Origin: Candidatus Amesbacteria bacterium
GTDB taxonomy: Bacteria > Patescibacteriota > Microgenomatia > CAZETR01 > Amesbacteraceae
Direction of reading: 5' to 3'
NCBI GenBank assembly: GCA_016219445.1
Contig: JACRNA010000011.1
Location: forward strand, 1 to 37,851
Length of the DNA: 37,851 bases
Part shown: piece after piece, positions 3,587-20,967 of the stretch
Position numbering within the stretch: position 1 is the stretch's first letter
Layout: each line of letters opens with the position of its first letter
Notes under the pieces: generated by a model
Database searches by the model: none
The model's input: only the letters and a program-made list of their open reading frames with translations
What the model was told of the DNA's origin: nothing
Position numbers and translations under genes: made by a program

Positions 3587-3722
3587 TATTTATGAGATTA
3601 TAAATTCAATCTTAGGCAAGCGTTTGGAGTTGGGTTGACAACCAACCAGTTTGCAAATATTTATAAAGATCCGAAGATCAGATGGCACATGGGAGCTGAT
3701 CGCAGGGTCTGTTTTGTTTTTT

Positions 3723-5063
3723 ATGACCAGAACACTAATAACAGAAACCATTTCCAAAATAGGTGAAATCGTCTTAATCAAAGGCTGGGTGAACACACGC
3801 CGTGATCACGGAAAAATTGTCTTTATAGACGTCCGCGACCGGACAGGTCTCTTGCAAGTCGTTCTTTCTCCAGAGTTGGCTGGAAATCTACATAGTGAAG
3901 ATGTAGTTTATGTCACGGGCGAAATCCAAGCCAGACCAGAAAAACTAATCAATCCAAAACTTGCGACTGGGACAGTCGAAATGTCTTGTGAAAAAGTTGA
4001 GTTGATCGCAAAAGCTGCTGAATTACCTTTTGATATGGGTAAAGAAAATTTGGATCTGGAATTACCGACTTTACTTGATCACAGATCGTTGACGATGAGA
4101 CATCCGAAGATCCAAGCAATTTTCAAAGTTCAGGCGGTGATTATAGATGCGTTTCGAAAGGCGTTGCAAGCAAAAGACTTTTTAGAGTTTCAAGCTCCAT
4201 GTATTACTCCGGCAGTGGCTGAGGGTGGAGCAGAAGTATTTAAAGTAAAATATTTTGAACATGAAGCCTATTTATCCCAAAGCCCTCAATTGTACAAGTC
4301 CCTTCTGGTCGGAGATTTTGAGCGGGTATTTAGTGTCAATAAGGTTTTTCGGGCTGAACCAAGTGTTACGACTAGGCACCTGACTGAGGTAGTCAGTCTG
4401 GATGCAGAATTTGGATTTATTGAATCATGGGAAGAGGTTCAGGATATGGAAGAATATGTGGTGCGATTTATCTTTGCCGAGGTGGCTAATAAGTGCCAGC
4501 GCGAATTAAAGATGTTTAATGCCACATTACCTAAATTATCAGACAAAATTCCTGTTATCAAGTTGCGCGATGCTCAGGAAATAATTTTCAAACGGACAGG
4601 CCGGGATATCAGGCAGGAAAAAGATTTGGATCCCGAAGGGGAAAGGGAAATATGTAAATGGAGCTTAGAACAACACGATTCCGACTTAGTTTTTATTTCA
4701 CACTTTTTGACTAAGAAAAAACCATTTTATGTATTTCCCGATCCTGCTGATCCGACTTATGCCTATAGTGTCGATTTAATCGGCAGGGGAGTCGAATGGT
4801 CCAGTGGTGGTCAACGGTTAAATAATTATGAGCAAATTCTGGAAAATGCCAAAGAATGGGGAGTAAAAGCAGAAGACATCGAAATGTATTTACAGTCGTT
4901 TCGCTATGGAGTCCCGCCTTTGGGAGGATTTGCTTTGGGAGCCGAGCGGATGACTATGCATATTTTGGGCCTAAAAAACATTCGTGAGAGCACGATGTTT
5001 CCCCGCGACATGGAAAGAATTGATGTCAGTCTACGAAAAAATAATACAGCTATTACAGGATAA
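3723..5063 (+). CDS. aspS: Aspartyl-tRNA synthetase, short archaeal/eukaryal type (probably non-discriminating)
   Basis: OB-fold GWVNTRRDHGKIVFIDVRDRTG, class II motifs (FRAEPS, GGFALGAERMTM); ~447 aa without the bacterial GAD insertion domain. Confidence 0.9.
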   Translation: MTRTLITETISKIGEIVLIKGWVNTRRDHGKIVFIDVRDRTGLLQVVLSPELAGNLHSEDVVYVTGEIQARPEKLINPKLATGTVEMSCEKVELIAKAAELPFDMGKENLDLELPTLLDHRSLTMRHPKIQAIFKVQAVIIDAFRKALQAKDFLEFQAPCITPAVAEGGAEVFKVKYFEHEAYLSQSPQLYKSLLVGDFERVFSVNKVFRAEPSVTTRHLTEVVSLDAEFGFIESWEEVQDMEEYVVRFIFAEVANKCQRELKMFNATLPKLSDKIPVIKLRDAQEIIFKRTGRDIRQEKDLDPEGEREICKWSLEQHDSDLVFISHFLTKKKPFYVFPDPADPTYAYSVDLIGRGVEWSSGGQRLNNYEQILENAKEWGVKAEDIEMYLQSFRYGVPPLGGFALGAERMTMHILGLKNIRESTMFPRDMERIDVSLRKNNTAITG

Positions 5064-19362: not shown

Positions 19363-19617
19363 ATGAAACTTGACAAATCCCAAGCACTTGCTCTCCTCAA
19401 TGACCATATTCAAAATGAGAATTTGAGGAGACATTGCTTGAGTGTTGGGATTGTCATGAAATCTTTGGCGCAAAAATTAGGTAGAAATCCAGAAACTTGG
19501 GAAATTCTTGGGATTATTCACGACTCAGATTGGGAAGAAACCAAAGATACTCCCGACCAGCACACCATAGTCACACTTTCTGCCATGCAGGGTATTGCAT
19601 CAGACATTAGCTTGTAA
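19363..19617 (+). CDS. Short HD-domain (hydrolase-like) protein, probably truncated
   Basis: LNDHIQNENLRRHCLSVGIVMKSLAQKLG...EILGIIHDSDWEE; ends at 84 aa, short for the family. Confidence 0.55.
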   Translation: MKLDKSQALALLNDHIQNENLRRHCLSVGIVMKSLAQKLGRNPETWEILGIIHDSDWEETKDTPDQHTIVTLSAMQGIASDISL

Positions 19618-19623
19618 TATAAT
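19595..19623 (+). promoter_or_regulatory. Predicted promoter driving the serS leader
   Basis: TTGCAT (19595-19600), 17-nt spacer, TATAAT (19618-19623). Confidence 0.55.
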
Positions 19624-19634
19624 ACTCTTCAAGC

Positions 19635-19717
19635 GTTGATGTAGCATCCAACTACGGAGCTTAAGGGAAACTAAATTGAGCAACCACTTCAGCTGGCAAC
19701 TCCTTCGGGGCGGAAGT
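19635..19717 (+). ncRNA. Candidate structured 5' leader RNA upstream of serS (three hairpins)
   Basis: Hairpins 19635-19652, 19659-19681 (GAAA loop) and 19686-19717 (UUCG loop, UGGCAAC bulge), preceded by a promoter. Confidence 0.45.
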
Positions 19718-19728
19718 ATAATAAAAAT

Positions 19729-20967
19729 ATGATTGATATTAAACTTATTCGTGAACAACCAGATCTGGTTCGTCAAGGAACAGCGGATAAGGGCTATAAT
19801 GTCAAAATCGTGGATCTGGCTGTTGAATTGGACAAAAAACACCGGGGGCTGATGACTCAAATAGAAAACCTAAGAGCTAAACGTAACCAACTGAACAAAG
19901 ATCAAATGGAGGAAGGAAAACAAATAAAGATTCAACTCAAAGAATTGGAACCGCAATTAGATGAAGTTGGTAAAAATTTGTTTGAAGTCCTTAATCAGAT
20001 TCCCAATCCGCCGTTGTCATTATCTCCCAAAGGAAAAAATGAAAAGGACAATGTTGAAGTGCGTAAGTGGGGTACCCCCCGCAAATTTGATTTCGTAGCC
20101 AAAGACCATTTAGAATTAGGTCAAAATTTGGGGATTCTAGATTTTGTATCTGGTGCTAAAGTTTCAGGTTCCCAATTTTATTTTTGGTACGGAGACGGAG
20201 CTTTGCTCGAATTAGCCCTCACACGCTTTGCATTTGATTTATTGAGTAAAGAAGGTTTTTTACCAGTTATCACACCTGATTTGGCCAAAGCTCGATATTA
20301 CATTGGCACAGGTTATATGCCCAAGGGCAAAGAAGCTCAAACTTACAAAATCGAAGATGAAGATTTGGGGTTGATCGCTACAGCCGAAGTAACATTGGCC
20401 GGAAAGCATGCTGATGAAGTTATCCCTGAAGATAATTTACCAATTAAATATATCGGTTATTCGCATTGCTTCCGACAGGAGCAAGGGGCTTATGGAAAAT
20501 ATTCCAAAGGTTTATATCGTGTTCACCAGTTTACCAAAGCAGAAATGTTTATCTATTGTATACCAGAAGAATCAGACAAATTTCATCAGCATATTTTAGC
20601 CATGGAAGAAAAAATATATCAATTGTTAGGTTTATCCTACCGAGTATTAGAAATGTGCACTGGAGATCTTGGGTCAATGGCAGTTCGTAAGTTTGATGTG
20701 GAGGCTTGGATGCCCACAAGGGGCGGCTATGGCGAAGTTACTTCAACCTCCAATTGTACTGATTATCAGGCTAGGAATCTTAACATTCGTTTCAAGCGGA
20801 AAACTGGAGAAGTTGATTTTATCCATATGCTCAATGGAACAGCCATTGCCACTTCTCGTACGCCTTTGGCAATTCTTGAAAATTATCAAAACGCTGATGG
20901 GTCGGTGACAATCCCCGAAGTCTTGCGTTCCTATATGGGTAAGGACAAAATAGAGCGAAAGAAGTAA
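19729..20967 (+). CDS. serS: Seryl-tRNA synthetase
   Basis: MIDIKLIREQPDLVRQG, coiled-coil N-terminus, FRQEQGAYGKYSKGLYRVHQFTKAEMF, TSTSNCTDYQARNLNIRF. Confidence 0.97.
   Translation: MIDIKLIREQPDLVRQGTADKGYNVKIVDLAVELDKKHRGLMTQIENLRAKRNQLNKDQMEEGKQIKIQLKELEPQLDEVGKNLFEVLNQIPNPPLSLSPKGKNEKDNVEVRKWGTPRKFDFVAKDHLELGQNLGILDFVSGAKVSGSQFYFWYGDGALLELALTRFAFDLLSKEGFLPVITPDLAKARYYIGTGYMPKGKEAQTYKIEDEDLGLIATAEVTLAGKHADEVIPEDNLPIKYIGYSHCFRQEQGAYGKYSKGLYRVHQFTKAEMFIYCIPEESDKFHQHILAMEEKIYQLLGLSYRVLEMCTGDLGSMAVRKFDVEAWMPTRGGYGEVTSTSNCTDYQARNLNIRFKRKTGEVDFIHMLNGTAIATSRTPLAILENYQNADGSVTIPEVLRSYMGKDKIERKK

Follow-up and report, generated by a model that had tools for sequence, protein, structure and literature searches.

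The leader of serS (19630-19728) in an ultrasmall member of the Microgenomatia, within the Patescibacteria, is likely to be a minimal T-box riboswitch that controls this gene. The window, that is the whole stretch of 37,851 nucleotides that was analysed, belongs to contig 6 of a genome of 810 kb, the named relatives of which are Amesbacteria and Woesebacteria. serS (19729-20967) codes for a seryl-tRNA synthetase of 412 aa (TIGR00414, 456 bits). The element proper begins at 19631, and the last stretch with which it could pair is already within serS, at 19748-19752; its parts, its two promoters and serS are all on the plus strand. It had originally been predicted that the region holds a reduced T-box-like element for tRNA-Ser, and this idea is borne out by homologous leaders, a match to the covariance model R1, concordance between codon and gene, covariation and agreement with the tRNA discriminator base. 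The leader sits directly before an aminoacyl-tRNA synthetase gene, as is generally asked of a T-box, and it shares with the canonical T-box (RF00230) this position, a specifier codon and a UGGN bulge in a two-part helix. In contrast to the canonical form it lacks a long Stem I with an elbow-binding motif, Stem II, a terminator and a match to the Rfam model.

Comparison with relatives identifies the 5' part of the leader as an ultrashort Stem I of 32 nt (19631-19662). It consists of helix P1 (AAGC/GCUU, 19631-34 and 19659-62), a kink-turn (GUUGA/GA, 19635-39 and 19657-58) and helix P2 (UGUAG/CUACG, 19640-44 and 19652-56), capped by a 7-nt apical loop, CAUCCAA (19645-19651), which carries the serine specifier UCC (19647-19649) followed by A. 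Covariation upstream of related serS genes had been suggested as a check, and over 24 hand-curated elements all 8 of the 8 Stem I pairs were found to vary on both sides. Pairing was possible in 92% of Stem I cells against 57% after shuffling, a figure with an upward bias, as pairing itself had guided part of the choice of helices; shifting the register abolished the signal. Pairs were counted on the composite alignment A3, built with helix blocks, as the MAFFT alignments A1, A2 and A6 misplaced helices. The GA/GA kink-turn consensus is present in 13 of the 24 elements including that of the window, and a kink-turn hairpin with a Ser codon arose in 1 of 4000 shuffles, under criteria fixed after the relatives had been seen. 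UCC followed by A occupies the apical loop of every T-box of serS or another serine gene seen in the class, and a tRNA-Ser(GGA) gene is encoded in the same genome.

The original prediction had recognised no classic Stem I. A Stem I does exist, of the short kink-turn type, and the accompanying view that the leader is highly reduced was right. The first hairpin had been drawn as GUUGAUG-UAG-CAUcCAAC with AGC as the serine codon. This hairpin is worth only -1.6 kcal/mol, is unable to form in most relatives and competes with the covarying P1 and P2, and it was rejected. AGC is not conserved as a specifier: it is absent from L002, L003, L016 and L027, and in L004, L005 and L222 its G and C sit in or at the P2 helix. 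A hairpin hiding UCC, obtained with RNAalifold from three sequences, was also discarded, being conserved only among near-identical sequences.

Stem I is followed by a linker of 23 nt (19663-19685), which in alignment with full-length relatives replaces Stem II and Stem IIA/B; these cannot be present because only 23 nt separate Stem I and A1. The linker retains the conserved AAAUUGAG (19673-19680; AAAUUAAG in relatives). A second predicted hairpin (GCUUAA/UUGAGC) overlaps the linker; its letters are there, but it cannot coexist with P1, since GCUU (19659-62) belongs to both as a shared strand, the 5' one of the hairpin. Next comes the antisequestrator (19686-19717), conserved in L015, L002, L222 and L005. 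It is made of A1 (ACUUCAGC/GCGGAAGU, 19686-93 and 19710-17, with one A.G mismatch), the bulge UGGCAAC (19694-19700) and A2 (UCC-UUCG-GGG, 19701-19710), and here the bulge and its helix agree with what had been claimed. The first A1 pair is A-U in the window against U-A in L222 and L005. The bulge reads UGGCAAC in the window and L015 and UGGCACC in L002, L003, L005 and L222; the former is one position off the general seven-base UGGNACC. A UGGNA bulged helix was found in 8 of 4000 shuffles, again with criteria set after inspection of the relatives. The UGGC of the bulge fits the discriminator G73 of tRNA-Ser(GGA), and in four systems of this genome the base after UGG and the discriminator are C/G for Ser, C/G for Asp, U/A for Val and A/U for Gly.

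Homologous serS leaders occur in a sister species of the same genus (L015), in the same family (L002, L003, L005) and in other families of the class (L004, L016, L027). In L222 (genus g8), L227 and L231 a homologous element precedes a phosphatase-family gene, which in L222 itself precedes serS. Most serS genes in the class are without the element, and its distribution is therefore patchy. The absence of a conserved UGGC bulge or of covarying stems before the serS genes of relatives had been named as grounds for giving up the T-box idea; both were found there. The full-length serine T-boxes of L003, L004, L005, L016 and L027 share with the window the Stem I plan, UCC and the AAAUUAAG-type linker, with UGGCAC in the bulge against UGGCAAC. 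They retain Stem II and the IIA/B motif (CCCGUAA-type in some), and set against them the window element has lost both. L003, L004, L016 and L027 combine the UGGCAC bulge with terminator-like hairpins that have U-runs and with a CGGG-NNNN-CCCG hairpin; UAA-like bases come after the latter, an arrangement resembling Stem IIA/B. Judged from the sequences, Stem II and IIA/B are also missing in L015, L222 and the organism's own valS element (L109), and the L002 leader looks intermediate in reduction. Two Paenibacillus serS leaders (L058, L061) look short-stemmed as well, with an AAUCCAA apical loop, a UGGCACC bulge and no Rfam T-box match.

Comparison with the sister species indicates that the leader is under purifying selection. 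Of its 91 positions 79 are identical to those of L015, as against 36 of 62 third positions of the upstream gene (p 1e-4) and 9 of 19 of that gene's fourfold sites (p 4e-4); the Stem I loop, the bulge and the A1 strands do not differ at all between the two. The L015 SerS protein is a mosaic, its body being 68% identical to the L013/L014 lineage and 51% to the window protein while its C-terminus is nearly that of the window protein. With a foreign-like SerS body and a native leader, it can be concluded that replacement affected most of the serS coding region in L015 but spared the leader. Upstream of serS, an HD-type gene (19363-19617) codes for 84 aa compared with ~185 aa for the same gene in L015; either ~100 codons were lost internally in frame, or the assembly is at fault here.

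The whole leader folds no better than its shuffles (z +0.69, 153 of 200 shuffles being as stable), and a longer leader piece gave z 0.08. A search with the T-box covariance model had been proposed, and Rfam RF00230 gave no match in the window, the leader or ten relatives, the weak matches to non-T-box families being noise; the element is not claimed as an Rfam family hit because the gathering cut-off is not reached. The model R1 was built on the trimmed composite alignment A7 from five elements of other genera only, with Stem II removed and some loop bases trimmed. Across the 37.8-kb window R1 scored highest at 19631-19700 (21.5 bits, E 9e-4); genome-wide the same element comes second (E 0.02), behind the valS T-box (60.5 bits), with E-values that, as given by the tool, are rough. 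A strict class-wide search with R1 matched 14 of 280 genomes, which is no prevalence figure because R1 misses elements with Stem II. The second-best match in the window, 3618-3689 (E 0.069), belongs to a second T-box candidate (3618-3722, plus strand, fold z -1.92) directly upstream of aspS, coding for aspartate--tRNA(Asn) ligase (3723-5063; NF003483). This candidate has a Stem I with GAC (Asp, 3637-3639), a bulge UGGCACA (3683-3689) in a helix GAUCAG/CUGAUC and a terminator-like AGAUCC/GGGUCU with a U-run.

Two promoters could serve the gene, and the letters of both are present as had been claimed. The distal one has a -10 TATAAT (19618-19623) and, at a spacing of N17, a weak -35 TTGCAT (19595-19600) that agrees with the consensus at 3 of 6 positions; this pair was not among the promoters listed by a promoter scan. 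Transcription is predicted to start at ~19630, right at Stem I, and such a start is supported by related T-boxes, 17 of 22 of which have a -10-like hexamer (>=5/6) 3-17 nt upstream of Stem I. A second TATAAT (19717-19722) ends 6 nt before the ATG. Among 31 window genes checked, seven carry TANNNT at a distance of exactly 12 nt from the start, the same position as in serS, and only two have Shine-Dalgarno-like sites. Hexamers placed in this way are characteristic of leaderless messages. A serS RNA of that kind would not be subject to the switch, which this promoter may therefore bypass.

Control is probably translational, and A1' may bury the AUG. In the window, folding places GCGGA of A1' (19710-19714) opposite UUCGU (19748-19752, serS codons 7-8) as a candidate sequestrator (19710-19752), a hairpin that would enclose the AUG and exclude A1. 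A1' can pair with coding bases 20-24 in each of the four leaders that are minimal or nearly so, namely those of the window, L015, L002 and L222 (UUCGU, UCCGC, UUCGC and UCCGC), and the L222 gene is unrelated to serS. Under synonymous recoding such pairing has a chance of ~25% per case; the combined p of 0.003 (fold) or 0.006 (duplex) is overstated because the four sequences are related, and singly the window gives 0.11 and L002 0.23. No Shine-Dalgarno sequence was seen before serS, and no intrinsic terminator, as a transcriptional T-box would have, was found after the antisequestrator in the window leader. With neither of these visible, the case for an off state depends on statistics that are weak and come from related sequences. 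The suggestion that the mode is perhaps translational is retained as part of the core idea, with pairing in all four leaders behind it, and the sequestration of the AUG is put forward as a hypothesis drawn from the sequence.

Comparison establishes the homology to T-boxes, Stem I, its specifier, the bulge, the loss of Stem II and IIA/B and selection on the leader; from these we infer binding of tRNA, sensing of its aminoacylation, the translational mode and use of the two promoters, in the following course of events. The RNA would start at ~19630, and the short Stem I, bent by its kink-turn, would offer its UCC loop for recognition by the GGA anticodon of a tRNA-Ser. The 3' end of an uncharged tRNA, GCCA, could pair with the UGGC of the bulge and stabilise the antisequestrator A1/A2. 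A1' would then be unable to reach codons 7-8, the start codon would be open and the synthetase would be made. With serine-charged tRNA the pairing at the bulge would fail and A1' would fold onto the start of serS and bury the AUG. A leaderless transcript from the TATAAT at 19717, lacking the switch, could provide basal expression.

It is unlikely, but deserves consideration, that the leader is a T-box by descent which acts in another way than by hiding the AUG, for instance through RNA stability or through an unrecognised terminator or pause site. The close serS relatives L003, L027 and L016 are of the terminator kind and the sequestrator statistics are weak when the window and L002 are taken singly. 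However, there is no U-run after the bulged helix in the window, L015, L002 or L222, A1' has its partner at matching positions of the coding sequence in each of these leaders, one of which stands before an unrelated gene, and the sequence of the organism's own valS T-box contains an AGGAGG able to pair with the UCCU of its antisequestrator.

Still less probable is a decaying remnant, in which the leaderless promoter has taken over serS and tRNA sensing by the leader has been lost. Such decay would fit the lost Stem II and IIA/B, the UGGCAAC in place of UGGCACC, a leaderless promoter at the position that is the norm for the genome, and the many related serS genes that have a leaderless-type promoter only. 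Yet the Stem I loop, bulge and A1 are identical in two species that agree at fewer than half of the fourfold sites, the leader was retained while most of L015 serS was replaced, and the minimal T-box of L222 has no TATAAT before its start codon. That the leader is no T-box at all, but an AT-rich spacer with a chance resemblance or a leader of a different type, for example a site for protein binding, is already strongly disfavoured and highly improbable. The missing Rfam match and the unremarkable fold would suit it, but homologous leaders that have the complete T-box anatomy, the independent R1 match, the cognate codon and the discriminator agreement all speak against it. A minimal serS T-box acting on the start codon remains the preferred reading.

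At E up to 1, RF00230 matched in 32 of 59 relatives, with four over the cut-off. The organism's own genome has three matches, one before valS (L109) and two in tandem before glycyl-tRNA synthetase (L110). The tandem pair (own contig 9, ~663-1080) has GGC in the first apical loop and GGA in the second, as if reading two glycine tRNAs. A short Stem I whose apical loop holds the codon is found in many members of the class. In 29 of 47 genes the loop of the strongest hairpin near the 5' end contains the cognate codon of the downstream gene, followed by a purine; permutation gave 7.9 expected and a maximum of 19 in 20000. The hairpin was picked automatically and a few gene identities were assigned by eye. 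In a set of further elements (L118, L161, L112, L119, L121, L149), CCC (Pro) T-boxes precede an ornithine cyclodeaminase-like gene and proS, a UCC (Ser) T-box precedes serA, and CGC (Arg) T-boxes precede acetyltransferase/ATP-grasp-like operons. At E up to 1e-5, RF00230 matched 86 of 287 genomes of the phylum, and among 14 control genomes it matched five (Bacillus, Lactococcus, Corynebacterium, Thermus and Deinobacterium), all from phyla with reported T-boxes (PMC2494555).

Among known systems the serS leader comes nearest to the ultrashort Stem I T-boxes of actinobacterial ileS, from Nocardia farcinica and Mycobacterium tuberculosis, with which it has in common a short kinked Stem I, a specifier in the apical loop and an antisequestrator with a UGGN bulge (PMC7583486, PMC10651847). 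Those T-boxes work in the translational mode, which for the serS leader is our reading of the sequence (PMC7583486, PMC10651847). What they hide is a Shine-Dalgarno sequence; the serS leader has a Ser codon and seems to hide the start codon itself. The ileS elements also have a Stem II with an S-turn and a IIA/B pseudoknot. Tight binding of tRNA depends on both, and in N. farcinica removal of IIA/B lowered binding ~1200-fold (PMC7583486). The serS leader has neither, and is therefore to be regarded as a variant of the ultrashort Stem I class and not as a standard member. Glycine T-boxes (glyQS) likewise lack the Stem II domain (PMC7583486), but they have a long elbow-binding Stem I and a terminator, in contrast to a Stem I of 32 nt; the long Stem I motif has been called essential for transcriptional T-boxes (PMC7583486). 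Lack of both the long Stem I motif and Stem II with IIA/B is unusual.

To our knowledge the ~90-nt form, if real, would be the smallest T-box design known. T-boxes have been described as mainly a Gram-positive device, and in the open literature that was searched we found no paper that joins T-boxes with Patescibacteria. Some patescibacterial T-boxes will already carry a label from annotation with Rfam, and the T-box database used its short-Stem-I model on Actinobacteria and on elements that had been detected before (PMC7778990). The minimal form is invisible to the Rfam model, which still matches 86 of the 287 genomes of the phylum. Our judgement is evenly poised on the broader proposal that Patescibacteria use T-boxes widely and that some lineages have brought them down to ~90 nt, with a kink-turn mini Stem I, a linker and a bulged helix, without elbow motif, Stem II or IIA/B, hiding the start codon of genes that have no Shine-Dalgarno sequence.

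In the structural view, binding of tRNA by a T-box requires either a long Stem I or a Stem II domain. An RNA that is conserved by selection and has neither makes this requirement directly testable in vitro. Host-dependent ultrasmall bacteria are without most amino-acid pathways, and the serS leader shows how such bacteria could sense their supply of amino acids.
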